A DNA stretch of 32,301 nucleotides from a virus: IMG/VR virus record IMGVR_UViG_3300002460_000115, positions 1 through 32,301 of that record; one strand, 5' to 3'. How positions within the stretch are numbered: the first letter of the stretch is position 1; each line of letters opens with the position of its first letter. The notes beneath the pieces are model-generated. The model saw only the letters and a program-made list of their open reading frames with translations, was not told the origin of the DNA and did no database searches. The position numbers and the translations under genes are program-made. Shown piece by piece: positions 4,284 to 25,288 of the stretch.

Positions 4284-4322
4284 TGGGGATAACTCTGCTT
4301 GTGCTAATTGTATGCATATGAT
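4284..4322 (+). promoter_or_regulatory. Rightward early promoter with DnaA-box-like element
   Basis: TGGGGATAACT (4284-4294; reverse AGTTATCCCCA) is followed at once by CTGCTT (4295-4300), a 16-nt spacer and TATGAT (4317-4322). The same order and spacing recur at 5605-5643. Divergent from the Rep O promoter, so the intergenic region 4160-4307 is a two-way control region. Confidence 0.5.
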
Positions 4323-5682: not shown

Positions 5683-5757
5683 ATGTGTTTAATTATACCA
5701 GTTTTTGTTTTTATAGTCGTTGTAGTATTAATAGTTAATTTTAGTGAAAAAAGATAA
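5683..5757 (+). CDS. 24-aa membrane micro-protein upstream of SPFH gene
   Basis: ATG 5683 with AAGGTG 12 nt upstream; a GTG at 5668 in frame would add five residues. The product is almost wholly one hydrophobic helix (CLIIPVFVFIVVVVLIVNF) ending SEKR. Its TAA overlaps the ATG of the SPFH protein (TAATG 5755-5759), suggesting coupling and perhaps a joint membrane complex. Too short for family assignment. Confidence 0.5.
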   Translation: MCLIIPVFVFIVVVVLIVNFSEKR

Positions 5758-9719: not shown

Positions 9720-10802
9720 ATGCAACTCGAAGATTTTGTTCGTGTCGTAAATAACTACTACAATTCCAAGGGACTTGACTCTGATATAAATCGCATTGTG
9801 TTAGACCAAGAAGTTGTCAACTATGTTGCTTTGGCCCAACAGAACCCACTACCCAAATATAAAGTTGCTTTGGTATTTACCTGTTTGAACCCTCTTTACT
9901 GGGAGTTTGCTCCAGAGATGGTTAAAGGAGCTAAACAATTTTTTCTTCCAGGTCATAAAACAGACTTTTTCTTTTGGACTGATATACCCGAAAACCCTGA
10001 TGAAATAAGGACAAAAATGATGTCCACTTTTCAGAATATACTTCAACAATTTGGGGCAAATCCGAATGACCAAAATCTTTTAAATTTAGATGTAACAATT
10101 AAAGGTAAAAATATGAATTTCCCGAATATGATTAAGAGTGTTCAAGAACTTCGTAAAATGGAAGGAGTAAATATTATACCAACTGAACCAATAGACTGGC
10201 CTATGCCTACTCTCTTACGCTATCACTTATTTTTGCAACAAGAGGAGAAGTTAAAGGAATATGATTACATAGCATATTGTGACATCGACATGAAATGGGT
10301 TGGAGTCTGTGGAGATGAAATTTTACCTAAAAGTGGATTATTTGCCGCCCCTCATCCTGGCTATTATCTTCCGAAAGAACTTTATCCACCCTACGAGCCA
10401 AATGAACTATCAACAGCATATATTAAAAGACCTGGGAGAGTGATAACTGAAGATGGCAAACGAAGATTTAGACCCGAATACTACGCGGGTGGTTTTCAGG
10501 GGGGTAAATCTAGACCATTTATAGAAGCCATGAAGCGTATGAGAGACAGAATAGACATTGATAGAAAAAATGGGTATACCGCAATCTGGAACGATGAGTC
10601 GCATTGGAATTTTGAGTTATCTGAAAACCCACCAGAGATTATGTTAGACCCTGGGTATATTTATCCTGACTCATTGATTGACGATTTTTACACTAAAAAG
10701 GTTTGGTGGAGGAATTTCCAACCTAAACTAATGACTCTTACAAAGTGGTTTTCGCTTAGTCCTGAAGGAGGTCAAGCAGTGGCTAACATGACGAAAAAAT
10801 GA
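9720..10802 (+). CDS. Glycosyltransferase family 6 (ABO-type)
   Basis: 360 aa. GT6 enzymes transfer Gal or GalNAc in alpha-1,3 linkage, retaining configuration. Visible family motifs: KVALVFTCLNPLYWEF (about 48-63), TDFFFWTD, MPTLLRYHLF, YIAYCDIDM with metal-binding Asp188-x-Asp190, HPGYY (212-216), YYAGGFQGG (254-262) and WNDESHWN (290-297), equal to the DESHLN motif of ABO and alpha-galactosyl transferases. The DxD is kept, as in animal and cyanophage GT6; most bacterial members have NxN. A long insert (about 95-150) is unusual. First gene of the glycan island and coupled by ATGA to the GT2 gene. Confidence 0.85.
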   Translation: MQLEDFVRVVNNYYNSKGLDSDINRIVLDQEVVNYVALAQQNPLPKYKVALVFTCLNPLYWEFAPEMVKGAKQFFLPGHKTDFFFWTDIPENPDEIRTKMMSTFQNILQQFGANPNDQNLLNLDVTIKGKNMNFPNMIKSVQELRKMEGVNIIPTEPIDWPMPTLLRYHLFLQQEEKLKEYDYIAYCDIDMKWVGVCGDEILPKSGLFAAPHPGYYLPKELYPPYEPNELSTAYIKRPGRVITEDGKRRFRPEYYAGGFQGGKSRPFIEAMKRMRDRIDIDRKNGYTAIWNDESHWNFELSENPPEIMLDPGYIYPDSLIDDFYTKKVWWRNFQPKLMTLTKWFSLSPEGGQAVANMTKK

Positions 10803-11467
10803 TAAGTATTGTAATTCCATCATTTAATCAACAAGACTACTTATGTGATGCAATAGAGTCGGCCATTGCCCAAAAAAATCCTTACCTAAATGTGGAGGTG
10901 ATTGTAGTTGATGATGGGAGCACTGATAATTCTCTTGAAATAGCAAGAAAGTATCCTGTAAAAGTTGTCTCTCAGACTAATCGTGGTTTGAGTTCAGCAA
11001 GGAACACAGGGATTATGAATGCAAAAGGACATTATATTTTATTTTTAGATGCGGATGATATTTTATTAGAAGGGGCAATTTTAAAAATACAAAAAATAAT
11101 AAAAGCAACGAACGCGGATATAGTCTCTCCATCTTTTAGAACCTTTGGCACTTCTAATCAAGAAATAATTTTGATGCCTAATCCTACCATAGAAGATTTT
11201 AAGGTTGGAAATCGGATAGCGTATTGTTCAGCGATAAAACGAGAAGCACTACTAGAAGTGGGTGGATATTCTCCTCGGATGACTTGGGGTTGGGAAGATC
11301 TCCATTTGTGGATAAACTTATTGACTAAGGGAAAGAAAATTGCTACAATACCAGAAGTATTATGGCTCTATCGCACAAAAGAAAAATCTATGTGGCTTGA
11401 TTCAGTACAACACTCTGAAGAACTTACTAATCAAATTAAAAAGGATTTTCCATTTTTTTATGCGTAA
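10799..11467 (+). CDS. Glycosyltransferase family 2
   Basis: 222 aa, a complete GT-A fold: ISIVIPSFNQQDYLCDAIES at the start, VIVVDDGSTDNS (nucleotide-binding Asp pair), LSSARNTGI, YILFLDADD (metal-binding DxD at about 82-84) and WGWEDLHLWINLL with the acceptor-side ED. Inverting transfer of a sugar from a nucleotide donor in the cytoplasm. Coupled to the GT6 upstream (ATGA 10799-10802) and overlapping the fucosyltransferase-like gene. Donor and acceptor cannot be read. Confidence 0.9.
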   Translation: MISIVIPSFNQQDYLCDAIESAIAQKNPYLNVEVIVVDDGSTDNSLEIARKYPVKVVSQTNRGLSSARNTGIMNAKGHYILFLDADDILLEGAILKIQKIIKATNADIVSPSFRTFGTSNQEIILMPNPTIEDFKVGNRIAYCSAIKREALLEVGGYSPRMTWGWEDLHLWINLLTKGKKIATIPEVLWLYRTKEKSMWLDSVQHSEELTNQIKKDFPFFYA

Positions 11468-12029
11468 TATTCGGGATTTTTTTGGTGGTTTTGGTAACAG
11501 ACTTTTTCAGTTTGCTTATCTATATTCCCAGGTAAAGCAAGGAAACTTACCAGATATTTATCTCCAAGACTATCGCTATTTTGACCAATATAAGCAGGAA
11601 TTACAAGGGATTTTAGGGGCAGACTTGACAAAAACAGATTACATTTCACTCCATATTCGGCGAGGAGATTATATAGATAATCCTTTTTATGTTGACCTTA
11701 CCCAAACTGACTACTATGAGAAGGCTATTGCCGAATTTCCTAATGAGAAGTTTCTGGTATTTTGTGCCGACCGGCAAGAAAAAAGTGATGATGTGAGTGA
11801 TATGGAGTGGTGTAAGAATGTTTTTAAAGGAGGAAATTTTGAGTTCTATCAAGGACAGAATGAAATAGACGACTGGAATAAAATGGCTGGGTGTAAAAGT
11901 CAAATTATAGCTAATAGTAGTTTTTCCTTTTGGGCTTCATATATTGGGGGTGGTAAAGTGGTTGCTCCCTTGAAATGGTTTAGTGATGGTCGCGCTATTC
12001 CGTTACCAAAAGAATGGATTAAATTGTGA
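11460..12029 (+). CDS. Short GT11 (alpha-1,2-fucosyltransferase-like)
   Basis: Start 11460 is in the 3' end of the GT2 gene (the frame is open further up to 11340, but inside that gene). 189 aa: FFGGFGNRLFQFAYL (GGxGNxxFQxA motif, residues 7-21), ISLHIRRGDY (GDP-fucose binding HxRRGDY, 65-71) and IIANSSFSFWASYI. These are the diagnostic GT11 motifs in order, but the protein is about 100 residues shorter than usual, with the segment between the first two motifs much reduced. Expected reaction is GDP-Fuc transfer to a galactose 2-OH. With GT6 it is the pair that builds A/B-type antigens. Confidence 0.8.
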   Translation: MRNIRDFFGGFGNRLFQFAYLYSQVKQGNLPDIYLQDYRYFDQYKQELQGILGADLTKTDYISLHIRRGDYIDNPFYVDLTQTDYYEKAIAEFPNEKFLVFCADRQEKSDDVSDMEWCKNVFKGGNFEFYQGQNEIDDWNKMAGCKSQIIANSSFSFWASYIGGGKVVAPLKWFSDGRAIPLPKEWIKL

Positions 12030-12035
12030 TATAAT
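12027..12035 (+). promoter_or_regulatory. Extended -10 promoter inside the glycan island
   Basis: TGATATAAT (TG 12027-12028, TATAAT 12030-12035) ends 6 nt before the ATG at 12042, predicting a leaderless message. It overlaps the stop of the GT11 gene. Confidence 0.5.
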
Positions 12036-12041
12036 TATTAT

Positions 12042-13064
12042 ATGAAATTACTCAAGCCTAAAAAAACTATTTGCATTACAGGTTCATTGGGCTTAGTTGG
12101 TTCAGAAGCTGTGCAGTTTTTTTTAAATAAGGATTGGAATGTTATTGGCGTTGATAATAACATGAGGTCGGAATTTTTTGGGGTAGAAAAAACCTCAAAT
12201 GCTTCAACATTAAATATTGATATAAGAGATGAGGAAGTTATAAATAAACTATTTCAAGAGTATAAATTTGATGCAATCTTAAATTGTGCGGCACAACCGA
12301 GCCATGATTGGTCAAAAGATAATGCTCTTATAGATTTTAAAACGAACGCCCTCGGCACACTTATCTTATTGGAAGCCACTCGCAAATATTGCCCCGATGC
12401 AGTTTTTGTTCACATTTCTACTGATAAAGTTTATGGGGAAAACTTCAAAGTGGATAATTTAATAGAGGGGCCAACCAGGTATGACACACATTATGGCAGG
12501 GGTACTCTTGGAGAAGAGGTTAGGCTAGACAATGCCGGTAATCGTTCCTTATTTGGTTGCTCTAAAACTGCGGCTGACATATATGTTCAAGAATATGGCA
12601 ATTACTTTGGAATGAAAACAGTTTGTTTTAGATGTGGGTGCATCACTGGCAAGAATCACAAAGGAGCAGAACTTCACGGCTTTATGGCTTACTTAGTAAA
12701 GTGTATTAAAGAAGGGAAAACTTATAATATCTTTGGTTATAAAGGAAAGCAGGTAAGAGACCAAATACATGTCTACGATTTAATTACAGCTTGTTATCAT
12801 TTTATTAAGCACCCACAATCTGGCGCGGTATACAACATGGGCGGTGGCAGAGATAGAAGTGTCTCAATTTTAGAAGCTATTGATTTAGTTGAAGAAGCAA
12901 CAGGTAAAAAGGCAGTTGTCAGTTATATTGACGAACCACGAAGAGGGGACCGAATTTGGGACATCCATTGTGTGGATAAATTTAAAAAAGACTATCCCCT
13001 ATGGGACTACAGGTTTTCTTTACAAGATATTATTAAAGATTTATGTCAAAACAGGAACGAATAA
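12042..13064 (+). CDS. NAD-dependent sugar epimerase, CDP-paratose 2-epimerase-like
   Basis: 340 aa extended short-chain dehydrogenase. GSLGLVG (residues 14-20) binds NAD; HISTDKVYG (about 124-132); FRCGCITG, then GAELHGFMAYLVKC and GKQVRDQIHVYDL, all typical of the CDP-paratose/tyvelose epimerase branch. The catalytic YxxxK is FGCSK (Phe171, Lys175), so the usual Tyr is missing. I recall homologues with LFGASK at this site, so this may be a subfamily trait. Expected work is epimerisation or redox on a nucleotide-deoxysugar. Has its own leaderless-type promoter. Confidence 0.8.
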   Translation: MKLLKPKKTICITGSLGLVGSEAVQFFLNKDWNVIGVDNNMRSEFFGVEKTSNASTLNIDIRDEEVINKLFQEYKFDAILNCAAQPSHDWSKDNALIDFKTNALGTLILLEATRKYCPDAVFVHISTDKVYGENFKVDNLIEGPTRYDTHYGRGTLGEEVRLDNAGNRSLFGCSKTAADIYVQEYGNYFGMKTVCFRCGCITGKNHKGAELHGFMAYLVKCIKEGKTYNIFGYKGKQVRDQIHVYDLITACYHFIKHPQSGAVYNMGGGRDRSVSILEAIDLVEEATGKKAVVSYIDEPRRGDRIWDIHCVDKFKKDYPLWDYRFSLQDIIKDLCQNRNE

Positions 13065-13162
13065 GAAAAATAAAAAACTTGATTGGGATTTTTCAAAGAG
13101 AAAAGAATTATTTTAAAGTGGATAGACTTAAATTTTTACTCAAACAAACTAAAAAGATATGA
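13043..13162 (+). CDS. Hypothetical 39-aa basic peptide linking two SDR genes
   Basis: Starts inside the end of the epimerase gene (22-nt overlap) and its TGA overlaps the next ATG (ATGA 13159-13162). MSKQERIRKIKNLIGIFQRE then KNYFKVDRLKFLLKQT: one or two basic helices. The ATGA junction suggests real translation; function unknown. Confidence 0.45.
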   Translation: MSKQERIRKIKNLIGIFQREKNYFKVDRLKFLLKQTKKI

Positions 13163-13845
13163 TTCTCCTTACTGGTAACTTAGGAAATATAGGTTCAAGA
13201 CTTGCAAAAAAGTTAGACTCTTTTATTGGTATAGATACCAAAGATGGAAAGAATCTTTTAACTTGCGAATTACCAGAAAATATAGATGTAATCTATCATT
13301 TAGCGGCTCATGCTCCCGTAGAATGGTCTTGGCAAGACCCTATGCGAACTATGGAAAATTTGGTCAATACAGTTCGTTTGGTTAATCACTACCCTAATGC
13401 GAAAATAATTTTTGCTTCTACGGGAGCTTCGATTGATCCCGTGTCTCCCTATGGATTCTCTAAATGGGCTTGTAATGAATACTTAAAACGGTTTCATAAA
13501 AACGCGGTAATACTTTACTTTCCAAACATCTTCGGTTTGCCTAGAAGTGTGGTTGATCTCTTCAAAGGAAAAGACGAGGTGGTGATTTATGGAAATGGGC
13601 TTCAGACAAGAGACTATGTACATGTAGATGACATTGTATCAGGTCTTGTCAAGGCTAAAGATTGGGAAGCAGGAGAATATTTTTTAGGGAGTGGGGTACA
13701 GACTAACTTATTACAACTTGCTGAAGGTAAAATAGTTCACTTTAAGGAGGCCCGTAAGGAAGCTAGAGAGTCAGTTTTGCCTAATACCACTCCTGAAGGT
13801 TCTTGGAAGCCAATTATTAATGTAATGGATTACATAAATAATTAA
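13159..13845 (+). CDS. Short NAD-dependent epimerase/dehydratase-like SDR
   Basis: 228 aa, about 80-100 residues shorter than usual for sugar SDRs. GNLGNIG (6-12) is the NAD-binding loop; IYHLAAHAP; ASTGAS in place of STDEVYG; SPYGFSK gives the YxxxK pair Tyr98/Lys102; QTRDYVHVDDIV is the usual substrate-domain motif. The C-terminal substrate domain is reduced. It could be a reductase or 4-epimerase acting on the ketosugar made by the 4,6-dehydratase-like enzyme at 15317. Confidence 0.75.
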   Translation: MILLTGNLGNIGSRLAKKLDSFIGIDTKDGKNLLTCELPENIDVIYHLAAHAPVEWSWQDPMRTMENLVNTVRLVNHYPNAKIIFASTGASIDPVSPYGFSKWACNEYLKRFHKNAVILYFPNIFGLPRSVVDLFKGKDEVVIYGNGLQTRDYVHVDDIVSGLVKAKDWEAGEYFLGSGVQTNLLQLAEGKIVHFKEARKEARESVLPNTTPEGSWKPIINVMDYINN

Positions 13846-13848
13846 TTT

Positions 13849-14262
13849 ATGATAAAAGGAATAACTTTCGGAGCGTTTGATCTTCCACACGCTGGGCATT
13901 GTTTAATGTTAGAGGAAGCCAAAAAACAATGTGATTGGCTTATTGTAGGACTTCAGAATGACCCCAGTGAAACACCCATAGAATACAGGGGAAAGAAAAA
14001 AAACAAACCTATTCAAAGATTAGATGAGAGATACATTCAACTAAAATCCAATAGATATGTGGATGAAATAGTTACCTACAATAGCGAGAAAGATTTATAT
14101 AAATTACTTTTAGATATTAAGCCAGACATTAGGATAATAGGCGCGGACTGGAATGGTAAAAATTTTACAGGACATAACTTGCCAATAAAAGTATTTTTTA
14201 ATAGTCGTAACCACTCTTATAGTACAACTGAGTTGCGTAACAGAATAAAAAATGCCAATTAA
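13849..14262 (+). CDS. Cytidylyltransferase-like nucleotidyltransferase
   Basis: 137 aa: ITFGAFDLPHAGHCLMLEEA contains the HxGH nucleotide-binding motif (HAGH at 14-17), followed by CDWLIVGLQND and RLDERYIQLKSNRYVDEI, and it ends YSTTELRNRIK, equal to the STTxxxxRI motif. Length and motifs match glycerol-3-phosphate cytidylyltransferase (TagD) and the heptose-phosphate adenylyltransferase domain. It would activate a phosphorylated small sugar or alcohol with CTP or ATP for transfer. True substrate unknown. It is not the larger type (RfbF) that makes CDP-glucose. Confidence 0.8.
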   Translation: MIKGITFGAFDLPHAGHCLMLEEAKKQCDWLIVGLQNDPSETPIEYRGKKKNKPIQRLDERYIQLKSNRYVDEIVTYNSEKDLYKLLLDIKPDIRIIGADWNGKNFTGHNLPIKVFFNSRNHSYSTTELRNRIKNAN

Positions 14263-14274
14263 CCCAAAAATAAC

Positions 14275-14302
14275 TTGCTTTTCATATTGTGGGTGATATA
14301 CT
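14275..14302 (+). promoter_or_regulatory. Promoter of the inserted HNH gene
   Basis: TTGCTT (14275-14280), 16-nt spacer, TATACT (14297-14302) with TG at 14294-14295. The ATG at 14310 is 7 nt after the -10. The same TTGCTT-N16 spacing is seen at 5616-5643. Confidence 0.5.
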
Positions 14303-14309
14303 ATAATAT

Positions 14310-14765
14310 ATGCCAACAGGAGTATATAAAAGAAAACTAGGAACAGGTAAAGGTGTATTTGGTAAATATACTAGAACTTTAGATATTAGAAAAAAAATGA
14401 GTAAATCTCATAAGGAGAATCCTACTAGATATTGGCTTGGTAAAAAAATTCCTAAAGAGATAGTAGAACGCATAAAAGAAACTAAATTAAAAAATGGGAA
14501 AGAAGGTAATAAAAACTACTTCAAGGTGCATGTATTTAAGGGTGAAGAACACAGATTATGGAAGGGTGATAAGGTAAGTTATATACCACTACACCAATGG
14601 CTTTATAGAGAACTAGGTCAACCAGAAATTTGTGAATATTGTGGTAAAACAGGGTTAAAGGGGAAACAAATACACTGGGCTAACAAAAGCAAGAAATATA
14701 AAAGAGACTTAGAAGATTGGCTTAGATTATGTGCTAAGTGCCATTATCATTATGACAGAGACTAA
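14310..14765 (+). CDS. HNH homing endonuclease with NUMOD3-like motifs
   Basis: 151 aa. MPTGVYKRK start, DIRKKMSKSHKENPTRYW and GKKIPKEIVERIKETKLKN as NUMOD3-type DNA-binding segments, then CEYCGKTG (about 109-116), QIHWANKSKKYKRDLEDW and LCAKCHYHYD, an HNH/zinc nuclease of the form seen in phage homing genes. It splits the sugar genes between the cytidylyltransferase and a GT2 and has its own leaderless-type promoter, consistent with a mobile insert. The last 14 nt overlap the next gene. Confidence 0.8.
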   Translation: MPTGVYKRKLGTGKGVFGKYTRTLDIRKKMSKSHKENPTRYWLGKKIPKEIVERIKETKLKNGKEGNKNYFKVHVFKGEEHRLWKGDKVSYIPLHQWLYRELGQPEICEYCGKTGLKGKQIHWANKSKKYKRDLEDWLRLCAKCHYHYDRD

Positions 14766-15339
14766 AAATCCTAAGGTGAGTTTGGTTCTCCCAATACACG
14801 ACATGAAAAACGGAGCTTTCTTTTTATGGAGAGCTGTAAACTCTATCATGGAGCAGACTTTTAAAGATTATGAAATTATAATCACGAAGGAGGGTTCTAT
14901 GCCAGTAAATACGAATATAGGAATAGAAAAATCAAGAGGAGAGTTAATTAAGATACTTTACATGGATGATTATTTCACAGATAAAACTGCTTTGGAAGAA
15001 ATGGTTAAAAATTTTACAGAAAGAGATAGCTGGATGATTGTTGGAACAAACGACAACGAAAATCCCGAATGGACAGATGATATAGAAACTGGAAATAATA
15101 AACTTGGTTCGCCTTCTGCTCTAATGATGCGAGGGACAGATAGGTTGTTATTTGATGAAAAGTTATCTTGGTTGCTTGATGTGGATTTGTATAAAAGAAT
15201 GGAACATTATTGTGGACTTCCAAAGATATTGAAAGGCAATTATATCACGATAGGTAAACATGACGGACAGATGACCCATCTTATGAGTGATGATTATAAG
15301 TTGAGTGAGCACGAATATGTCAGAAACAAATACAAATAA
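14752..15339 (+). CDS. Glycosyltransferase family 2 (short)
   Basis: Start 14752 (MTETKNPK) lies just inside the end of the HNH gene; an upstream in-frame start would add seven residues. 195 aa: VSLVLPIHDMKNG, FFLWRAVNSIMEQTFKDYEI and MPVNTNIGIEKSRGELIK, with LYMDDYF as the DxD equivalent (MDD). The C-terminal part contains LSWLLDVDLYKRM, the second Asp pair of GT2 enzymes. Shorter than most members; likely active but substrate unknown. Confidence 0.8.
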   Translation: MTETKNPKVSLVLPIHDMKNGAFFLWRAVNSIMEQTFKDYEIIITKEGSMPVNTNIGIEKSRGELIKILYMDDYFTDKTALEEMVKNFTERDSWMIVGTNDNENPEWTDDIETGNNKLGSPSALMMRGTDRLLFDEKLSWLLDVDLYKRMEHYCGLPKILKGNYITIGKHDGQMTHLMSDDYKLSEHEYVRNKYK

Positions 15340-16363
15340 AAAGCGTGTGCTTATCACTGGTATCGCTGGTTCAATCGGTATTCATGTTTTTGCTCACATT
15401 ATGCACAACACAGATTGGGAAGTTGTAGGTATTGGTAGTTTTCGTCATAAGGGACTTGTAGACAGAATAGTGGAAATAACTGAAAACCATCCAGAGTGGT
15501 TAAAGCGATTAAACATGATAACCCATGACCTTTCTGCTCCCATATCTTCTTTAACAAGAGAAAAAATAGGTAAAGTAGATTACATAATTAACTTGGCTTC
15601 TTTATCAGATGTGGAGGCAAGCATCCAGCAACCCGCAGAGTTCATTCAAAACAATGTGGCTTTGATGGTAAATATGCTGGAATATGCCAAAGAGGCGAAG
15701 CCGGAAGTGTTTATCCAGTTCTCTACTGATGAAGTTTATGGGCCAACACAAAATAAAACTGACACTTACAAAGAATGGTCGCCCCAAATTCCCTCTAACC
15801 CTTACGCGGCTTCTAAGGCGTGTCAAGAGATGATTTCTATTGCCTATTGGAGAACTTATAATGTGCCAGTAGTAATTACGAATACTATGAATAATTTTGG
15901 AGAAATGCAACAACCTTATAAGTTTCCCGTGATGATACAAAAAGCAATAGAGGCGGGAGAGGAAATAACCATACATGGAAACGAAAATGGGGATATAGGT
16001 TCTCGTTCTTATATTCATTCAAGAAATGCCACAGATGCTCTATTATTTATTCTTAAACAACCTGTCTATATACACCAACCTGCAAAAGCAGACAGACCCG
16101 ACAGATATAATATCGTTGGTGATAAACAACTAGATAATTTGGAGTTAGCTCAACTTATAGCTCGTCTTATGGGTAAAGAGTTGAAATATAAACTTGTTAA
16201 CTTCCATAAAACCAGAATGGGGCATGACCCGCACTATGGGCTTGATGACTCAAAGTTAAAAGAAATGGGTTGGAGGTCGCCAGTGTCATTTGAAGATAGT
16301 CTGAAATCCACTATTGAATGGCAAACCAGCCATCCAAATTGGATTTCTAAAAATCATATATGA
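15317..16363 (+). CDS. NDP-sugar 4,6-dehydratase-like SDR
   Basis: Start ATG 15317 preferred over GTG 15305. 348 aa: VLITGIAGSIG binds NAD; FSTDEVYGP (135-143) holds the Thr-Asp-Glu triad that marks 4,6-dehydratases; NPYAASKACQEM gives Tyr163/Lys167; NTMNNFGEMQQPYKFP and SRSYIHSRNATDALL resemble RmlB. It would convert an NDP-hexose to the 4-keto-6-deoxy form, the entry point for deoxysugars. Nucleotide (dTDP, CDP, GDP) cannot be told. The ATG of the 3-dehydratase overlaps its stop (ATGA 16360-16363), fitting consecutive reactions. Confidence 0.8.
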   Translation: MSETNTNKKRVLITGIAGSIGIHVFAHIMHNTDWEVVGIGSFRHKGLVDRIVEITENHPEWLKRLNMITHDLSAPISSLTREKIGKVDYIINLASLSDVEASIQQPAEFIQNNVALMVNMLEYAKEAKPEVFIQFSTDEVYGPTQNKTDTYKEWSPQIPSNPYAASKACQEMISIAYWRTYNVPVVITNTMNNFGEMQQPYKFPVMIQKAIEAGEEITIHGNENGDIGSRSYIHSRNATDALLFILKQPVYIHQPAKADRPDRYNIVGDKQLDNLELAQLIARLMGKELKYKLVNFHKTRMGHDPHYGLDDSKLKEMGWRSPVSFEDSLKSTIEWQTSHPNWISKNHI

Positions 16364-17574
16364 AAATAAAATATAAATTTGACGGGCGTTATGGAGGGGC
16401 ACTCACTGATGAACGTGAAATGAAAGCAATTATAAAGTCGATTTACAAGTCTAATAAGACAGGAAATTGGCAAGCTGGACCTGAAGCCACTAAAATGGAA
16501 CACGAAGCTGCTAAATTCCTTGGCGTAAAATATGGAATCCTCACCACTTCTGGTTCTTGCGCGGGTTTGCTTGCGCTTCAGTCATTGGAACTTGAGAAAG
16601 GCAGCGAAGTCATCATTAGCGCGGTTACTTTTCCGACCATTTTCAACATTATTTTACAATGTGGGCTTGTTCCTGTTGTGGTTGATGCCAAGATAGGCAT
16701 CTACAACTTTGATGTAGATGAGGTCGAACGTGCGATTACAAAGAAAACTAAAGCAATAATAGCCGTTCATGCAGTGGGCAATCCATGTGATATGCCAAGA
16801 CTAATGAAAGTGGCTAAGAAATATAATGTCAAAGTCATCGAAGACAATTGTGATGGTTGGGGTTCTACCATTAAAGGACAAAAAGTCGGTAGTTTTGGAC
16901 ACGTCTCTATTACCTCATTTCATGCGGCACACATTGTCTCGATGGGTGTTGGGGGGGGCGTGTTTACGAATGACAAAAATATCGCCGAATGTGTACGAGT
17001 TTACCGCGATTGGGGTAGACAGGCAGATACTACAAAATCGAACCGATACAAGGAGCTTCCAAAAGATTATAATTCCCGTTTCATTTATGAAAAAATAGGT
17101 TATAATTTCCAAATCCTAGAACTTCAGGCGGCTATGGGAAGGGTGCAGTTGAGGAAAGCAGATGAAATAAAGAAATTAAGGCAGAAAAACTTCAATTATT
17201 TATATGAAGCATTTAGAAGTTTAAACCGAAAAAGATATTTTGAAAAAAATATAGAAGCGGAACTAATTTTGCCTTTTTTGGAATCTGCAAAAGCTGATAC
17301 ATGCTGGTTCTCTTTTCCATTAACTACAAATGGAAATAGAGGAAAACTTACAGCCTATCTTGAAAAACATGGTATAGAAACTCGCTCAATGTTTGCAGGA
17401 AATATCATCCGTCACAGTGCTTACAAAAATTCAAAATATAAAATTGGGCCTGACGGTCTAACCGAAGCAGATTACATACTCAAACATTCATTCTGGATAA
17501 CTCTACATCCCCGCCTCAAAAAAAGTGATTTAGATTATATTATTAAAATATTCAGGGATTACTACGAATGTTAG
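16360..17574 (+). CDS. PLP-dependent 3-dehydratase, ColD/RfbH-like (DegT family)
   Basis: 404 aa DegT/DnrJ/EryC1 fold: TSGSCAGLLAL, VTFPTIFNIILQCGLVPVVVD, HAVGNPCDMP and EDNCDGWGS bind PLP. The loop that normally carries the Schiff-base Lys reads SFHAAHIVSMG, with His191 in the Lys position. That change marks ColD, E1 and RfbH, which remove the 3-OH from 4-keto-6-deoxysugars to give 3,6-dideoxy sugars. The C-terminus (GIETRSMFAGNIIRH) also matches this group. The CxC iron-sulfur ligands of RfbH/E1 after DWGR are missing, so a ColD-like mechanism is likelier. Eight G (16951-16958) encode Gly198-200. Confidence 0.85.
   Translation: MKIKYKFDGRYGGALTDEREMKAIIKSIYKSNKTGNWQAGPEATKMEHEAAKFLGVKYGILTTSGSCAGLLALQSLELEKGSEVIISAVTFPTIFNIILQCGLVPVVVDAKIGIYNFDVDEVERAITKKTKAIIAVHAVGNPCDMPRLMKVAKKYNVKVIEDNCDGWGSTIKGQKVGSFGHVSITSFHAAHIVSMGVGGGVFTNDKNIAECVRVYRDWGRQADTTKSNRYKELPKDYNSRFIYEKIGYNFQILELQAAMGRVQLRKADEIKKLRQKNFNYLYEAFRSLNRKRYFEKNIEAELILPFLESAKADTCWFSFPLTTNGNRGKLTAYLEKHGIETRSMFAGNIIRHSAYKNSKYKIGPDGLTEADYILKHSFWITLHPRLKKSDLDYIIKIFRDYYEC
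16951..16958 (+). repeat. Poly-G tract (8) in the 3-dehydratase gene
   Basis: GGGGGGGG within GTT-GGG-GGG-GGC in the active-site loop. The frame is open as assembled. Such a run is rare in an AT-rich sequence where Gly is mostly coded GGA or GGT. Confidence 0.6.
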
Positions 17575-18200
17575 AGCTACCACAAATCACTCTCATAGCA
17601 CTCGGTACTAAAAACGTGGAAGGCATGTATAACGCCCTCCAACAGAGTCAAAAAGGTATAAAGTGGGGGGCAGTAAAACTCATTACCGAGATGCAATGCA
17701 ATACCATAGACGAATGGAATCACGCTATTATATTTGATTTACGAAGATTTGTAGATACTGACTTCTGTATGCTTATACACCCCGATGGCTTTGTGGTTAA
17801 TCCTGAAAGTTGGCGAGAGGAGTTTTTGTATTACGACTATATTGGTGCCCCTTGGCCACTTCCGACAGACAACTATTCGTATTTAACGCCTGATGGAGAA
17901 ATAGTCAGAGTAGGCAATAGCGTGAGTATACGAAGCCGAAAGATACTCAACTTGCCCTACGAATTGGAGTTTGCGTGGCGACCCTATTTTGGAAATACTA
18001 ACGAAGATGGATTTCTCACTTGTCATAATCGCAGACTCTTACAGCACTTTGGTTGTAGATTTGCCCCAATAGAGACAGCTAAACATTTCAGTAGGGAAAT
18101 GGAAATACCGGAGAATCAAGATATAGAAAGTCCTTTTGCGTTTCATTTACATGATACACAACCAGGTCGTAATGAGCAATACAGAGTTTTAATGGTATGA
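17568..18200 (+). CDS. DUF5672-type putative glycosyltransferase
   Basis: 210 aa: MYNALQQSQKGIKWGAVKLI, FVDTDFCMLIHPDGFVVNP, YYDYIGAPWPLP, VGNSVSIRSRKIL, NEDGFLTCH and FAPIETAKHFSRE. The order HxDGFVxNPxxW, YDYIGAPWP, GNGGxSLRS, EDxFxxxxxxxxL, FAPxxxAxxFS is that of DUF5672 proteins found in polysaccharide clusters and thought to be glycosyltransferases. Overlaps the 3-dehydratase by 7 nt and the cupin gene by ATGA. Substrate unknown. Confidence 0.8.
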   Translation: MLELPQITLIALGTKNVEGMYNALQQSQKGIKWGAVKLITEMQCNTIDEWNHAIIFDLRRFVDTDFCMLIHPDGFVVNPESWREEFLYYDYIGAPWPLPTDNYSYLTPDGEIVRVGNSVSIRSRKILNLPYELEFAWRPYFGNTNEDGFLTCHNRRLLQHFGCRFAPIETAKHFSREMEIPENQDIESPFAFHLHDTQPGRNEQYRVLMV

Positions 18201-18568
18201 AAATTATACGGAATATAAAACCAGAGTTTATAGATGAAAGAGGAGAGATTGCGCGGATATTGGATACTCCAATACAAAGCGTTTTACTTATAACTTGCAA
18301 GGCAGGTTCAATTCGCTCTAATCACTACCACAAAAAAGACTCACACTGGTGCTATATTTTATCAGGCAAAGCCGAATGGTATCAAAGGCCGATGGAGGGA
18401 GGCAAGATAGAGATGGAAATCTTAAACGCCGGAGATATGGTTTATGATCCTCCTAATATGATCCATGCTGGGAGATTTTTAGAGGATACAGTAGAGCTGG
18501 CATTTTGCACAGAACCTCGCAATCAAGACAACTACGAGGCTGACACTATAAGAGTTAAACTTATATGA
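18197..18568 (+). CDS. Cupin, sugar isomerase/epimerase-like
   Basis: 123 aa single cupin barrel: DERGEIARIL, SIRSNHYHKKDSHWCYILSG (His44, His46 and nearby residues form the usual metal/active-site cluster), EWYQRPMEGGK, GDMVYDPPNMIHAG and ELAFCTEPR. This pattern (RGxIxRxL, SNHYHKKxxH) is shared by dTDP-sugar 3,4-ketoisomerase and 3,5-epimerase relatives in surface-sugar clusters. A role rearranging the keto-deoxysugar is inferred from context. Overlaps neighbours by ATGA on both sides. Confidence 0.75.
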   Translation: MKIIRNIKPEFIDERGEIARILDTPIQSVLLITCKAGSIRSNHYHKKDSHWCYILSGKAEWYQRPMEGGKIEMEILNAGDMVYDPPNMIHAGRFLEDTVELAFCTEPRNQDNYEADTIRVKLI

Positions 18569-19236
18569 AATTTGGACTTTTGGGAACAGGAAATTGGGGA
18601 AAACATTACGCAAGATTGCTCCCAGAATATGGAGAGCTTGTCATCTTGGATAAAGAAATTGATCCAAGTGTTGACTGTGTAGTTATAGCCACTCCCGCTT
18701 CAACACATAAGGAATATATCAAAAAAGCTCTCAAAGCCGACAAACATATTTTAGTAGAGAAGCCAATGGTTTTATCAGTGGTAGACGCAGAAGAAGTTAA
18801 GAGTCTGCTGAAGAATAAAGTCTTTATGATAGCTCATCAACTTTGTTATCATGACTTTTTTAAAGAACTGATTAGCGTTGATTTAAAGTTCGTCAACTTA
18901 GTTCAGTTATACTCAAATGTCAGGCAGGATGTAAACGCCTGGTGGGATATTGCTCCGCATTTCTTTTCAGTAATTGATTTACTAAAATACGAAGGAGATT
19001 TTGATTTAATTCTTGACAACAATAGTAATAAGAAGATATGCCGTTGGGCTTTTATTGGAAATAGTGTTCGTATCATAGATGAATCTAAAAAGAAACCTCA
19101 AACTGAACCATTACGCAATGAGATTGAACACTTTATAAATTGTGTAAAAACTGGAAAAACACCCTTAACTGACATGGAACATGCATTAAGAGTAATAAGA
19201 AATATAGAAAAATATGAAACCCAATATGCAATGTAG
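18565..19236 (+). CDS. Short Gfo/Idh/MocA-family oxidoreductase
   Basis: 223 aa. FGLLGTGNWGKHYARLL is the NAD(P)-binding Rossmann loop, CVVIATPASTHKEYIKKALK and HILVEKPM follow (EKP catalytic Lys motif), then WWDIAPHFFSVIDLL, where the D-x-x-x-H pair matches the family. It lacks about 100 residues of the usual C-terminal sheet but keeps the ending EIEHFINCVKTGKTPLTDM, typical of the family. It could reduce a 3- or 4-keto group in the sugar pathway. Overlaps the methyltransferase gene by 23 nt. Confidence 0.8.
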   Translation: MKFGLLGTGNWGKHYARLLPEYGELVILDKEIDPSVDCVVIATPASTHKEYIKKALKADKHILVEKPMVLSVVDAEEVKSLLKNKVFMIAHQLCYHDFFKELISVDLKFVNLVQLYSNVRQDVNAWWDIAPHFFSVIDLLKYEGDFDLILDNNSNKKICRWAFIGNSVRIIDESKKKPQTEPLRNEIEHFINCVKTGKTPLTDMEHALRVIRNIEKYETQYAM

Positions 19237-20413
19237 AATATGCGCGTGCAAGGAGTTAGTGAAGTTCCTCGACTTGGGTAATCACCCTTTGGCTAACTCC
19301 TTTTTAAAAACTAAAGACCAAGGAGAAAAAACTTATCCTCTCCAAGTAGCATGGTGTAGAGAATGTAATCTTGTTCAACTGCTCCACATTGTGGACAGAG
19401 ATGTGCTTTATAGAGATTATATCTATTTCTCTTCGGGGGTACTAAAATTATCTGAACATTTTAGGAAATATGCCGAAGATATGATGCAGTATGTTAAACG
19501 AGGGGATTTTATAGTTGAGGTAGCAAGCAATGATGGCATCCTTTTGAAATTCTTTAGAGATGCGGGTTTTGAAGTGCAAGGTATAGACCCAGCGATAAAC
19601 ATAGCGAAGATAGCTGAGCAAATGGGTGTGCCTACTATATCTGATTATTTTAGCGAAGAATTGGCTGATAAAATTAACAGGAAAGCTAAATTGATTATGG
19701 CAAACAATGTTGTGGCTCACACAGACGACCACCACGACATGATGAGAGGTGTATCTAAACTATTAGATGAAAAAGGTGTATTTATAATTGAAGCACCATA
19801 TCTAGCGGATATGTTTGATAACTTGACTTACGATACAATATACCACGAACATTTATCGTATCTGGCTGTGCGTCCACTTAAATATCTTTTAGAGCAACAT
19901 GGATTGGAAATATTTGAAGTAGAAGTTCACGAAATACAAGGCAGGTCATTGAGAGTGTTTGTGGGACATGAGGGAGTATTTAAGATACAATCTTCTGTCC
20001 AAGAGTACATAGACCTTGAATTAAAATTAGGATTGGATAAAATTGATGCTTATCAAGAATTAGCGGCTAGAGTTATCGCACAGAAAGCACAACTCAAAGC
20101 TCTTCTAGGAGAACTTTCAAAGACAAAGAAGATAGCAGGTTACGCGGCTTCGGCTAAAGGCAACACATTATTAAATTTCTGTGAAATAGACTGTCTTGAA
20201 TATACACTTGACCACATGAAAGCAAAGCAAGGTCTTTATACTCCAGGTACTCATCTTCCTATAGTAAGTGCAGAGTATGCTTTAGAAAATCCACCTAACT
20301 ACTTTTTAATGTTGGCTTGGAATTACGAGAAACAAATCTTGGCTAAAGAAAAAGAGTACAGAGACAAAGGCGGTAAGTTTATTATTCCAGTAGAGGGTAT
20401 AAGAATTATATGA
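19214..20413 (+). CDS. NDP-sugar C-methyltransferase (TylC3/EvaC type)
   Basis: 399 aa in three parts. Residues about 6-60 are the N-terminal zinc-binding domain: CRIC, FLDLGNHPLANSFL, YPLQVAWCRECNLVQL (CxxC pairs). Residues about 85-190 are the SAM domain, VEVASNDGILLKFF and VQGIDP. YHEHLSYL (about 214) carries the catalytic Tyr-His-Glu-His set. The last part, GYAASAKGNTLLNF and PVEGIRII, is the C-terminal domain of this family. Such enzymes add a methyl to C-3 of a 4-ketosugar. ATG 19226 is an alternative start. Together with the dehydratases it points to a branched deoxysugar. Confidence 0.85.
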   Translation: MKPNMQCRICACKELVKFLDLGNHPLANSFLKTKDQGEKTYPLQVAWCRECNLVQLLHIVDRDVLYRDYIYFSSGVLKLSEHFRKYAEDMMQYVKRGDFIVEVASNDGILLKFFRDAGFEVQGIDPAINIAKIAEQMGVPTISDYFSEELADKINRKAKLIMANNVVAHTDDHHDMMRGVSKLLDEKGVFIIEAPYLADMFDNLTYDTIYHEHLSYLAVRPLKYLLEQHGLEIFEVEVHEIQGRSLRVFVGHEGVFKIQSSVQEYIDLELKLGLDKIDAYQELAARVIAQKAQLKALLGELSKTKKIAGYAASAKGNTLLNFCEIDCLEYTLDHMKAKQGLYTPGTHLPIVSAEYALENPPNYFLMLAWNYEKQILAKEKEYRDKGGKFIIPVEGIRII

Positions 20414-20422
20414 TTTAATGAT

Positions 20423-20611
20423 ATGAATAATTCCTATTTTAAAAGGTTTTTTAGAGATAAAGAAAATAAATTGTGGGGTATAGGTAATCTTGTTTTAGAT
20501 AAAATGTATGTAATTGGGCAATTAGAACCTCTTAAAGACGAAAGTTTTGGATTAACAAAGGAAGGATTAGAAATATTTATGAACACAGGTAATTGGAAAG
20601 AAGAACGATGA
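20423..20611 (+). CDS. Hypothetical 62-aa protein
   Basis: MNNSYFKRFFRDKENKLWG, then LDKMYVIGQLEPLKDESFG and MNTGNWKEER. Its TGA overlaps the next ATG (ATGA 20608-20611). No family is recognised; it resembles neither transferases nor HNH proteins. Confidence 0.5.
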   Translation: MNNSYFKRFFRDKENKLWGIGNLVLDKMYVIGQLEPLKDESFGLTKEGLEIFMNTGNWKEER

Positions 20612-21399
20612 TTTATGGAATATTTCACAAAGGAAGTGGCTTAGGCAATCAACTACACCGCTATGTAGCGACCAGAGTTTTAGCGTTGGATAAAGGATAT
20701 GATTTTGGGATGATAAATCGAGAAGGATTTAAGGGCAAATCCTTTATGAATGTAGATATGGGATTATTAGAACATACTGATGGTCCAAAGGATATAATGA
20801 TTTATATTAAAGAACCAGAGGGAAAGGTAATTCCTAAGTGGCGACGAGACGGAAGTCAACTGCCGTTTATTTGGGAAGAATGGGACAGAGGAGTATATGA
20901 TCCTGATTTTAACTTTATACAAGACAACACCATCATAGATGGAAACTTTGAAGATGAGAGATATTTTCAACACAGATTACCTGAAATAAAAGAATGGTTA
21001 AAAACAGAACCACTGGAAATACCTAATAATGTATGTGTCATAGGTTTTAGGGGGGGGGAATACTACACTGTACCCGAGCTAGGATTACCGAAAGAATACT
21101 TTGCGGAAGCTAAAGTTTTAATGTTGCAAAGAAATATAAATATGAAATTTGAGGTGCATACAGACGACCCCAAACTGGCTAAACAATTTTTCCCCAATGA
21201 TAAAATAATTAAAGATATAGCCATAAACTGGCGTTCAATGCGATACGCTAAATATGCTATAATAGCTAATAGCTCTTTTTATATTTTACCTCGTTTGCTT
21301 AATGGTGGACTGACAATCGCCCCAAGATATTTCAATCGGTATAACGTAAAACGTTGGGACTATCCGCAATCGTATTATAAATCTTTTCAATACATCTAA
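20608..21399 (+). CDS. GT11-like fucosyltransferase
   Basis: Start 20608 preferred (ATGA with previous gene); a TTG at 20593 is in frame. 263 aa: FHKGSGLGNQLHRYVATRVL matches the GGLGNQ motif, CVIGFRGGEYYTVPELG stands where GT11 has HxRRGDY (His and the first Arg replaced by Gly-Phe-Arg-Gly), and AIIANSSFYILPRLLNGG matches the ANSSFS motif. The donor-binding motif is thus divergent, so GDP-fucose is not certain. A run of nine G (21050-21058) lies in codons 148-151, inside that motif. Confidence 0.7.
   Translation: MIYGIFHKGSGLGNQLHRYVATRVLALDKGYDFGMINREGFKGKSFMNVDMGLLEHTDGPKDIMIYIKEPEGKVIPKWRRDGSQLPFIWEEWDRGVYDPDFNFIQDNTIIDGNFEDERYFQHRLPEIKEWLKTEPLEIPNNVCVIGFRGGEYYTVPELGLPKEYFAEAKVLMLQRNINMKFEVHTDDPKLAKQFFPNDKIIKDIAINWRSMRYAKYAIIANSSFYILPRLLNGGLTIAPRYFNRYNVKRWDYPQSYYKSFQYI
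21050..21058 (+). repeat. Poly-G tract (9) in the GT11-like gene
   Basis: AGG-GGG-GGG-G at codons 148-151 of the gene at 20608. Longest G run in the window. As assembled the frame is open (an ON state, if phase variable). Confidence 0.65.
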
Positions 21400-21992
21400 T
21401 GCAATTTATTTTATCACGCTATGAGCATAATATGGATTGGTTAAAGGATTACCCCGAAGCCGAAGTCATCATCTATGACCGAAGCAAAGAACCAATAGAA
21501 GGTTCTATTTCTGTTAAAAATATCGGCAGTGATTGGTATGACAAATTTACTTACATCATAGACAACTACGACAATCTTCCTGTTGTGGCTATTTATGCTA
21601 AGGCAAATCTCTTTAAATATATTACCAAAGAAGAATTTGACAAAGTAAAAGATAACAAAACTTTTACTCCCTTACTTACCCAACATCACAAAGTCTATGA
21701 GCCGATTTGCAGATATAAAGATGGAATGTATGAGGAGGTAAACAACAGATACTATCTTCATCCTCACCCTTGCAAAAATGAAACGACTGAATTAGAATTG
21801 ATGGTTATGCTAGGATTGAGTGATAAGAAGTATATACAGTTTGCGCCAGGTTCAAATTATATAATACCGAAAGAGAACATATTAAAACATACTAAGGAAT
21901 TCTACCAGAAATTAAGGTCGTACTTAGAATGGGATAGATACCCGGGAGAATGTCAAATAATGGAGCGTGGAGCGTATTATTTATGGAAATAA
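21399..21992 (+). CDS. DUF3431-like protein (putative glycosyltransferase)
   Basis: 197 aa: MQFILSRYEHNMDWLKDYPE, EVIIYDRSKEP, IDNYDNLPVVAIYAKANLFK, YIQFAPGSNYIIPKENIL and GECQIMERGAYYLW. The pattern of RYxEDxxWL, IYNK, YDxLPDxxxFxQ, F.PGAxFxVxRxxI and LERxW is that of DUF3431 proteins, found near glycosyltransferases. Reaction unknown. Overlaps both neighbours by 1-10 nt in a continuous operon. Confidence 0.65.
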   Translation: MQFILSRYEHNMDWLKDYPEAEVIIYDRSKEPIEGSISVKNIGSDWYDKFTYIIDNYDNLPVVAIYAKANLFKYITKEEFDKVKDNKTFTPLLTQHHKVYEPICRYKDGMYEEVNNRYYLHPHPCKNETTELELMVMLGLSDKKYIQFAPGSNYIIPKENILKHTKEFYQKLRSYLEWDRYPGECQIMERGAYYLWK

Positions 21993-22789
21993 AACCAAAA
22001 ATTGTAGATATATTCTCGTTTGCTGGTGAAATGGATATTTTAGAAATAAGATTAAATATTTTATATAATTTTGTGGATGAATTTATTATTTGTGAATCGG
22101 ACGAAACATTCACAGGTCTTAAAAAACCCTTATATTTTAAAGAGAATATAGCGAGATATGAGAAATTTCTGCCTAAGATAAAACATTTTGTCATGGCTTC
22201 TAACGACCCAATACTTACTTTAGGTGCAATGCAAAGTCCTGGTGTACCCAAAGATTTACATTGGTGGATTAGGGAGTATACGCAAAAAGAAAGCATGCGC
22301 TATGCGCTCACGCATTTAAAAGATGACGACTTAGTGTTTATAGGAGATGCAGATGAGATATGGAATCCGTTTAACATGCCTACAGAAAGATGTAAATTAG
22401 AAATGTTTGTCTATTCTTACTATCTCAATAATCGTTCAAGCGAGTGGTGGGAGGGAACATCAGTAATGCCCTATTCTTTAATTAAACAATACCCGCTAGA
22501 TGATTTGAGAGCCCACGATCATCATAAACGACCAATAGAGCAGGCTCCTACATTTAAAAACAATGGTTGGCACTTTACCAACATAGGTGGGGCAGAGTTC
22601 GTTAAAAGAAAGTTGGCGAGTTATAGTCACCAAGAATTCGCTATCTCTGAAATTTTAGATGGGATTGAAGACCGGATTAAGAATAATGTTGACTTTATTG
22701 GACGAAACTTTAAATTTGGTAAAGATGAAACTGATTTACCTCAGTATTTATTGCACAATAGAGATAAATATGCTAAAATGTTCCTATGA
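21983..22789 (+). CDS. Glycosyltransferase family 17-like
   Basis: Start 21983 (MEIKPKIVDIFSF); the frame is open from 21950 but inside the previous gene. 268 aa: IVDIFSFAGEMDILEIRLNI, VDEFIICESDETFTGLKKPL, REYTQKESMRYAL, DDDLVFIGDADEIWNP with a DxD-like DADE, then NNGWHFTNIGGAE and KLASYSHQE. These are the motifs of GT17 (beta-1,4-N-acetylglucosaminyltransferase III type; bacterial and viral members known). Substrate in a phage is unknown. Last enzyme of the island; the HNH gene overlaps its stop by ATGA. Confidence 0.8.
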   Translation: MEIKPKIVDIFSFAGEMDILEIRLNILYNFVDEFIICESDETFTGLKKPLYFKENIARYEKFLPKIKHFVMASNDPILTLGAMQSPGVPKDLHWWIREYTQKESMRYALTHLKDDDLVFIGDADEIWNPFNMPTERCKLEMFVYSYYLNNRSSEWWEGTSVMPYSLIKQYPLDDLRAHDHHKRPIEQAPTFKNNGWHFTNIGGAEFVKRKLASYSHQEFAISEILDGIEDRIKNNVDFIGRNFKFGKDETDLPQYLLHNRDKYAKMFL

Positions 22790-23223
22790 AAACCATTAAA
22801 CTTACTCAAGGAAAAGTGGCTTTGGTAGACGACACAGATTACGATTTGCTTTCTAAGTACAGTTGGTGTCTCCACACTAAAAGATATGCGTGTAGTAGAA
22901 TAAATGGAAAAGTTATATTAATGCACATTTTTCTATTAGGTAAGCAAAAAGGAAAAGAAATTGACCATATTAATAGAAATAAACTAGATAATCGTAGAGA
23001 AAATTTAAGATTTGTTACTAGGTCGATTAATTGCTTCAATGTAGATATAGATAAAGCTAATAAATCGGGGTTTAAAGGGGTTTCTTGGGATAAGCGTGGA
23101 AATAAATGGCGAGCGACTATTAAATTAAATTATAAACAAGTGTATAGTTCTAGCTTTTTAACTAAAGAAGAAGCTATTATGGCTCGGCAAATGGCATTTA
23201 ACAACATTATCAATATATGCTAA
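22786..23223 (+). CDS. HNH homing endonuclease with AP2 domain
   Basis: 145 aa: MKTIKLTQGKVALVDDTDYD and YSWCLHTKRYACSRINGK (the N-terminal strand unit), VILMHIFLLG, KEIDHINRNKLDNRRENLR (HNH core, Asp-His-Ile-Asn) and a C-terminal AP2 DNA-binding domain, SGFKGVSWDKRGNKWRATI then FLTKEEAIMARQMA. This is a standard phage homing enzyme. It lies between the glycan island and the chaperonin genes. Confidence 0.9.
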   Translation: MKTIKLTQGKVALVDDTDYDLLSKYSWCLHTKRYACSRINGKVILMHIFLLGKQKGKEIDHINRNKLDNRRENLRFVTRSINCFNVDIDKANKSGFKGVSWDKRGNKWRATIKLNYKQVYSSSFLTKEEAIMARQMAFNNIINIC

Positions 23224-23232: not shown

Positions 23233-23469
23233 ATGAAGACTTATAAACTATTACTTAAAGAAATTAAGCAAGAGAACACTTGGGGCTACCAAGATAAGGA
23301 CGAAATAAAATTAGGCAAGGTTGCTTTCCCATTTAAAGGCAAGAATGACGATACAGAGTTTGATTTTAAGAAAGGTGATGAACTCTATTACCAGTATGGA
23401 ACTCCCGCTAAACTCGATGGCGAGGATTATATTTTAGTAAGTTTAAGTAGTCTAGTATGGCAAAAATAA
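23233..23469 (+). CDS. Miniature GroES-like co-chaperonin
   Basis: 78 aa against about 95 for GroES. The C-terminal half FKKGDELYYQYGTPAKLDGE and DYILVSLSSLVWQK aligns with the GroES pattern GDxVLFxKYxGxEVKxDGEEYLILxESDILAxIE. The N-terminus MKTYKLLLKEI fits the first strand. The mobile loop with its hydrophobic GGIVL tip is not seen; KQENTWGYQDKDE occupies the place, so binding to the chaperonin must differ. The gene overlaps the GroEL gene by 13 nt, the classical groES-groEL order. Like phage T4 gp31, it may adapt folding for the capsid protein. Confidence 0.7.
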   Translation: MKTYKLLLKEIKQENTWGYQDKDEIKLGKVAFPFKGKNDDTEFDFKKGDELYYQYGTPAKLDGEDYILVSLSSLVWQK

Positions 23470-24998: not shown

Positions 24999-25288
24999 TG
25001 CCAGAAGAACTTGTTAATCAAGCAGAAAACAAGCCATTAAGAAATGAAAAAGGACAATTATTACCAGGTAACACAGCGAATCCTAATGGCAGACCAAAAG
25101 GCAAAACTCTCAAAGAATATCAGGCAGAGCAATTTAGAGATATGTCAGATGAAGATAAAGCAGAATGGTTAAAAGACATAAGTAAAGATACAAGATGGAA
25201 AATGGGGGAAGGAAATCCTAGAAATGATGTGGAGGTTTCAGGTAATTTAACTATTGGAGAAGTATTAGATGAAATAGAAAATGAGTGA
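24998..25288 (+). CDS. Small terminase subunit-like protein
   Basis: 96 aa: LRNEKGQLLPGNTANPNGRP is a strong signature found in many small terminases or terminase-associated proteins (DUF5681-like opening GxxxPGxxxNPxGRPKG), then KTLKEYQAEQFRDMSDEDKA and WKMGEGNPRNDVEV. It would recognise the phage packaging site. It directly precedes and overlaps the large subunit (25281). It starts at the ATG overlapping the GroEL stop (TAATG). Confidence 0.75.
   Translation: MPEELVNQAENKPLRNEKGQLLPGNTANPNGRPKGKTLKEYQAEQFRDMSDEDKAEWLKDISKDTRWKMGEGNPRNDVEVSGNLTIGEVLDEIENE

Follow-up and report, generated by a model that had tools for sequence, protein, structure and literature searches.

A conserved glycan-biosynthesis gene island beside the packaging genes of a family of small phages

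The virus record IMGVR_UViG_3300002460_000115 is a fragment of 32,301 bases, referred to here in its entirety as the window, whose right end cuts through the major capsid gene. Between positions 9720 and 22789 it carries, all on the + strand, an island of 16 carbohydrate genes together with an HNH endonuclease gene and one small gene, as delimited by open reading frame and Pfam analysis and by synteny in relatives. Eight of the carbohydrate genes encode glycosyltransferase-type proteins and eight encode sugar-nucleotide or tailoring enzymes. The island is syntenic throughout a family of related phages, which bears out an initial annotation of this DNA as containing a phage-borne unit of sugar genes. 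We propose, at about even confidence, that its soluble enzymes would work as an assembly line and put a host-like glycan on virion proteins.

Conservation of the island and the question of artefact

Relatives were gathered by scanning viral contigs with TerL, DegT and GT6, and 15 of them were read whole or nearly so. The contigs retrieved by these scans of IMG/VR carry the same island genes, in nearly the same order, beside packaging genes, so that the comparison with related phage genomes, as proposed in the initial annotation, found the same island in the same place. Genome size in the family is 39–44 kb. Five relatives of 41–44 kb have terminal repeats of 99–127 bases, which suggests that these genomes are complete; their islands, where uncut by contig ends, occupy about 9–11 kb, or near one quarter of the genome. 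A less biased test used the portal alignment (A1) alone, which gathered 97 relatives, among them 25 loci that extend 6.2 kb or more upstream of the portal. Island genes were found upstream of the portal in 24 of these 25 loci, and the remaining one (L180, on the same contig as G021) has its island elsewhere; some of the loci are near-copies (L105–L107), so the independent count is a little below 25. A further contig, L150, has about 5 kb upstream of the portal and no island gene within that stretch. The genes for the GT11-like, DUF3431 and GT17 proteins are each present in 19 of 20 compared genomes, most of which were first found via island genes, and in this they are comparable with the capsid genes. 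Across divergent genomes of the family the portal proteins are 57–84% identical, and the portal has no match among 50,697 phage records, so the family has no member there.

Mis-assembly, which the initial annotation had named as a refuting outcome, is ruled out by the recurrence of the island at one position in many independent contigs, both portal-selected contigs and genomes with terminal repeats. The wider suspicion, that the island is an assembly artefact or a passenger bacterial island without phage function, draws on the five HNH-type genes of the window, which mark a genome invaded by mobile elements, and on the presence of related cassettes in unrelated phages. It is hard to reconcile with an identical position across genomes as divergent as their portals indicate, with catalytic residues that are intact, and with the terminal repeats of several island-bearing genomes, and we consider it exceedingly improbable. 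Small phages rarely retain unneeded genes, so the retention of a 9–13 kb island by divergent genomes of 40 kb implies that its role is central.

A near-constant set of transferases and a varying set of sugar genes

The first transferase gene of the island (9720–10802) encodes a GT6 glycosyltransferase (Pfam E-value 2.8e-17; 62.9 bits against a cut-off of 25) related to BoGT6a and the ABO transferases in the PDB. Its DXD motif (D188, D190) is intact and is invariant in 16 of 16 aligned sequences, unlike that of BoGT6a, which has NXN (PMC3961637). It is followed by a GT2 enzyme, GT2a (10799–11467; 1.2e-37), and a GT11 fucosyltransferase-family protein (4.4e-17) with a start revised to give 11460–12029; a second GT2 enzyme, GT2b, lies at 14752–15339 (1.9e-7). 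The DUF5672 protein (17568–18200; 2.8e-12) is a putative glycosyltransferase, and placement of such genes beside GT11-like is conserved in phages and bacteria. The GT11-like protein itself (20608–21399) has no Pfam match, but its predicted structure (pLDDT 93) has a GT-B fold that matches the fucosyltransferase superfamily of POFUT1, NodZ and FUT8 with Z of about 11–12, and its Nomurabacteria homologues do match Pfam GT11. Next comes the DUF3431 protein (21399–21992; 2.7e-9), with a weakly GT-A-like fold. Many GT-A enzymes are among its structural matches, yet the best Z of 7.6 lies inside the range given by chance arrangements, and for this reason it is called only a putative glycosyltransferase. 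A GT17 enzyme (21983–22789; 2e-21) completes the set.

This set of transferases is near-constant across the family; the sugar-making genes vary. The majority of DegT proteins have the dehydratase histidine, and three (in G017, G020 and L134) have the aminotransferase lysine. The C-methyltransferase is matched in the window and in G021 only, and G001 has as extras a HAD-family protein, a GT47-like protein and a B12-binding radical SAM enzyme, the last two side by side (L084:14387-16894). A tandem duplication of GT17 was seen in G014 (L103:7094-8640). The pattern of a constant core with exchanged sugar genes may be likened to serotype diversification.

The sugar-making and tailoring genes

The gene content of the island allows a sugar pathway to be sketched. 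SDR3 (15317–16363; Pfam Epimerase/GDP_Man_Dehyd), a member of the short-chain dehydrogenase/reductase (SDR) family, is a nucleoside diphosphate (NDP)-hexose 4,6-dehydratase, recognised by its STDEVYG motif and by PDB matches to dTDP-glucose 4,6-dehydratases; against NCBIfam TIGR01181 it gives 9.9e-59, under the equivalog cut-off. The adjacent DegT-fold protein (16360–17574; Pfam DegT_DnrJ_EryC1, 1.8e-85) aligns with E1 (3bcx) and ColD, and its own histidine matches the E1 histidine that is lysine in 3bb8. With histidine in place of the lysine that binds pyridoxal phosphate, it should be a C3-dehydratase of the ColD/RfbH type rather than an aminotransferase. It is without the Cys-rich [2Fe-2S] loop of RfbH and E1 and scores 338 bits against an RfbH equivalog cut-off of 423, both of which point to a ColD-like mechanism free of an iron–sulfur cluster.

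The closest solved structures to SDR1 (12042–13064; Pfam Epimerase/GDP_Man_Dehyd; best PDB matches 9rl0 and 1orr) are CDP-tyvelose 2-epimerases, and it is accordingly described as CDP-tyvelose/paratose 2-epimerase-like. SDR2 (13159–13845; Pfam Epimerase, 5.1e-18) is a short extended SDR and a putative 4-keto reductase. A small nucleotidylyltransferase of the TagD/RfaE-domain-II type (13849–14262; Pfam CTP_transf_like) is 57% identical to a Nomurabacteria protein. The remaining enzymes are a cupin (18197–18568; Pfam Cupin_2, 3.2e-7) with PDB matches mostly to oxalate decarboxylases, a short GFO/IDH/MocA oxidoreductase (18565–19236; GFO_IDH_MocA, 1.6e-15) and a sugar C-methyltransferase (19214–20413; Pfam Methyltransf_13/23/14) that matches D-mycarose 3-C-methyltransferase in the PDB at 7.7e-89. 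Taken together, these assignments suggest that the product is a 3,6-dideoxyhexose, probably C-methylated in the window phage.

The initial annotation had counted about 15 sugar genes on one strand, and this holds well: there are 16, of which 15 are placed by Pfam. The sugar families that it listed also stand, but it had missed two genes inside the island, an HNH endonuclease gene (14310–14765), seen as an insertion outside the pathway on a weak HNH match (0.002, below cut-off), and the gene for a 62-aa protein without a Pfam match (20423–20611). Improved starts were obtained for GT11 (11460), GT11-like (20608), SDR3 (15317) and GT17 (about 21983). Overlaps occur at 12 of the 17 gene junctions; only five of the 17 overlap by exactly four bases, and gaps of 94 and 47 bases also exist, so that the description of the genes as mostly joined by ATGA overlaps was too strong.

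The role of the island

Several functions were looked for and not found. Among the 15 records there was no integrase of the families tested and no initiating lipid-linked transferase (Bac_transf), although controls for both gave matches, and no thymidylate-synthase-type hydroxymethylase (PF00303), for which the control was positive in 9 of 14. The sugar-1-phosphate nucleotidylyltransferase family PF00483 was likewise absent from the 15 records, so host NDP-hexoses are presumably used. A simple hydropathy scan of the islands not wrapping around contig ends revealed no multi-span membrane protein, and the 72 non-core proteins examined in five genomes included no Tet/JBP domain. Given the absence of lipid-linked, membrane, integrase, hydroxymethylase and Tet/JBP functions, the enzymes most likely act in the cytoplasm, where most likely they either glycosylate phage proteins or supply host lipid-linked intermediates. 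Lysogenic conversion is rejected, since neither an integrase of the families tested nor, in the islands scanned, membrane parts were found.

Glycosylation of virion proteins is preferred because the island lies beside packaging genes, is conserved like capsid genes, encodes soluble enzymes and is found without lysogeny genes; that homologous bacterial loci hold membrane parts which the phages lack is also counted in its favour, as is the exchange of dehydratase histidine and aminotransferase lysine among the DegT proteins. The fibrils of Megavirinae provide a viral precedent for virus-encoded virion glycans (PMC10117803), and mycobacteriophage capsids another (Freeman et al. 2023, as cited in PMC12619734). 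Host hexose nucleotides would first be 4,6-dehydrated by SDR3, after which the C3 hydroxyl would be removed by the DegT protein with its ColD/RfbH histidine. Reduction and epimerisation by SDR2 and SDR1, with probable C-methylation in the window phage, would then yield a rare 3,6-dideoxy sugar. The near-constant set of eight transferase-type proteins would build an oligosaccharide, to be linked to virion proteins while still in the cytoplasm, so that the particles would bear a host-surface-like glycan. Differing terminal sugars might then act like serotypes, altering recognition by receptors, host or competitors. Two small near-portal proteins contain 19% and 22% serine plus threonine, and several tail proteins are above the 13% average, which is only suggestive of a role as glycan acceptors. 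If virion coating is correct, few other phages would so far have been inferred to be as elaborately glycosylated, and their serotype-like sugar diversity would be traceable in sequence data.

Several considerations weigh against this proposal. The glycan, its acceptor and its transfer to protein are all read here from genes alone, as late expression is from gene position only. The host is unproven, and the portal is in no bacterial genome searched. The closest bacterial loci make a lipid-linked surface polysaccharide, and use on the host envelope would be equally natural for such enzymes. An altered repeat unit would in that case be built on a host lipid-linked sugar and exported by host flippase and polymerase, to block superinfection or the adsorption of progeny to debris. 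The Nomurabacteria homologues do neighbour Bac_transf, a Wzx-type flippase and Wzy_C, and O-antigen nucleotide-sugar genes of groundwater Patescibacteriota phages have been interpreted in this way (PMC12911398). Because its bacterial homologues serve surface polysaccharides, envelope remodelling stays a serious rival, but neither an initiating transferase nor a membrane protein turned up in the phage records and islands scanned, no integrase was found that would make a conversion lasting, and the place of the island beside packaging genes is fixed; we regard both the remodelling and the benefits proposed for it as possible but doubtful. Of the three purposes offered by the initial annotation, coating of the virion stays the best supported, and modification of adhesins is a sub-case of it; a change to the host envelope survives only in a restricted form, through the host's lipid-linked machinery, since no tested membrane step is brought by the phage.

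It has also to be asked whether the phage DNA is glycosylated against restriction, given that a range of glycans is known to be placed on DNA by phage glycosyltransferases (Pyle et al. 2024, as cited in PMC12619734). T4-type DNA glycosylation is rejected on the absence of the hydroxymethylase family from the 15 records and of a Tet/JBP domain from the non-core proteins examined. A transferase chain of this length also exceeds the needs of known DNA glycosylation, and the idea as a whole appears very improbable.

Bacterial relatives and the possible host

A search for DUF5672 in bacteria led to loci that cluster GT11-like, GT17, GT11 and GT2 genes. Of the cellular sets examined, those nearest to the island come from Nomurabacteria (Patescibacteria): the surface-polysaccharide loci L205, L220 and L196, which share with the island the order SDR3-GT2b-DegT-SDR2-DUF5672/GT11-like-DUF3431/GT17. 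They differ in being chromosomal, in having Bac_transf, flippase, Wzy_C and RmlA, and in the fusion of transferase pairs, and no GT6 was seen in them. Locus L205, placed on the chromosome by ribosomal L7/L12, has the same core order along with Bac_transf, a Wzx-type flippase, Wzy_C and a nucleotidyltransferase. In trees of DUF5672, GT17 and DUF3431 the Nomurabacteria sequences fall inside or beside the phage clade, and identities between phage and Nomurabacteria proteins, among the fetched loci, reach 75% for the aminotransferase-type DegT of G020, 63% for an SDR and 70% for the nucleotidylyltransferase. The window DegT shares 68% identity with a protein from a single genome out of 384 searched in the class of Nomurabacteria, where the match sits among other glycan genes; in two other phyla (349 and 341 genomes) identity is at most 45%.

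These similarities suggest gene exchange with Patescibacteria, and hence possibly infection of them, and we take Nomurabacteria or a relative as the putative host. The portal alignment found nothing in bacterial genome contigs, in seven cluster-bearing bacterial genomes or in 380 Patescibacteria genomes, a weak negative without a positive control. A Shine–Dalgarno-like core precedes 70 of 748 genes in the window and relatives, which is about chance level and not diagnostic for the host. Groundwater Patescibacteriota phages are reported to have O-antigen nucleotide-sugar genes as well as concanavalin A-like lectin domains (PMC12911398), and such lectin domains occur in the island phage family too. 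The fullest form of the proposal, in which a family of phages of ultra-small Patescibacteria builds a host-like glycan coat in the cytoplasm, whose constant transferase core and exchangeable donors amount to capsid 'serotypes', with genes traded in both directions with the surface-polysaccharide loci of the hosts, we put forward as unlikely to hold in every part. Little is known of the viruses of Patescibacteria, and it is towards such phages that the island points.

Other genes of the window

The island had been placed between early genes and terminase. Its position is right, but an HNH-AP2 gene, a small gene, a GroEL-like chaperonin gene and a TerS-like gene intervene before TerL, which is followed by the portal and major capsid genes. 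The GroEL-type chaperonin (23457–24998) is full-length, scores 428.6 bits against NCBIfam PRK00013, above cut-off, and occurs in 7 of the 20 compared genomes. The large terminase (25281–26810) belongs to a type with matches in few of the family (for example L002, L003 and G015). In most members another protein occupies its position, and this packaging gene thus appears to have been swapped. HNH-type proteins, some of them identified by eye only, are encoded at five places (555–1019, 2048–2605, 4308–4727, 14310–14765 and 22786–23223), two of which lie in the island or at its edge, and similar genes occur in relatives at shifting places. In the early region, 5757–6626 encodes an SPFH/HflC-HflK-like membrane protein related to PHROG 200, and 4724–5251 a small protein whose translation resembles an XRE-type helix-turn-helix with a sigma-region-4-like segment. 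The first kilobase (1–1000) has a G+C content of 0.446 against about 0.36, and bases 1–1200 have no DNA match in the fetched loci; the left end of the record is possibly chimeric.

Comparison with known systems

No report of this phage family was found in the literature searched. Sugar islands are known from large marine cyanophages, but no earlier case was found in which one is a constant feature of such small phages. To call the island exceptional for a phage, as was done at first, is an overstatement, since P-SSM2 and RB11-B have comparable clusters and a 642-kb phage has the same cassette. What is unusual is that a genome of about 40 kb gives about a quarter of its length to the island, across a whole family; this share, the family-wide fixation and the design of constant core and variable sugars set it apart from other phage-borne glycan clusters.

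Serotype-converting gtr cassettes pair a membrane flippase with a polytopic transferase in a temperate phage; here no multi-span protein turned up in the islands scanned, and no integrase in the 15 records. Mycobacteriophages also encode transferases of their own, and their capsid and tail tube proteins bear glycans (Freeman et al. 2023, as cited in PMC12619734), but they are reported with few transferases, two in one F1 phage (PMC11256854), against eight and a sugar pathway here. In Megavirinae and chloroviruses virus-encoded transferases and rare-sugar pathways are likewise clustered and give clade-specific sugars (PMC10117803); these are giant eukaryotic viruses with a proven glycan, whereas that of the island phages is deduced from genes. 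The cyanophages RB11-B (Synechococcus) and P-SSM2 (Prochlorococcus) carry clusters with GT2, GT6 or GT17, GT11 and SDRs, and RB11-B shares DUF5672-DegT-GT11-like-GT17 with the island. Like them, the island is a block in a tailed phage in which genes for glycosyltransferases and for nucleotide sugars lie contiguously, but theirs are genomes of more than 200 kb with other gene order and partners, in clusters not adjoining terminase, and the 39–44 kb genomes and unmatched portal set the island phages apart from viruses of cyanobacteria and from the T4-like lineage. Another close relative of the system is in LR756502.1, an uncultured phage of 642 kb with an unannotated record; it probably belongs to the huge phages of PMC7162821, where a 642-kb genome is listed. 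Its cassette (L183, LR756502.1:436000-458000) holds GT6, DegT, GT2b, DUF5672, DUF3431, GT11-like, GT17, cupin and C-methyltransferase in similar order at 26–46% identity; it differs in the huge genome around it, in a DegT that retains the E1-type Cys loop and in having DUF3431 before GT11-like. That this phage has the cassette, and cyanophages parts of it, suggests that phages reuse it as a glycan module.

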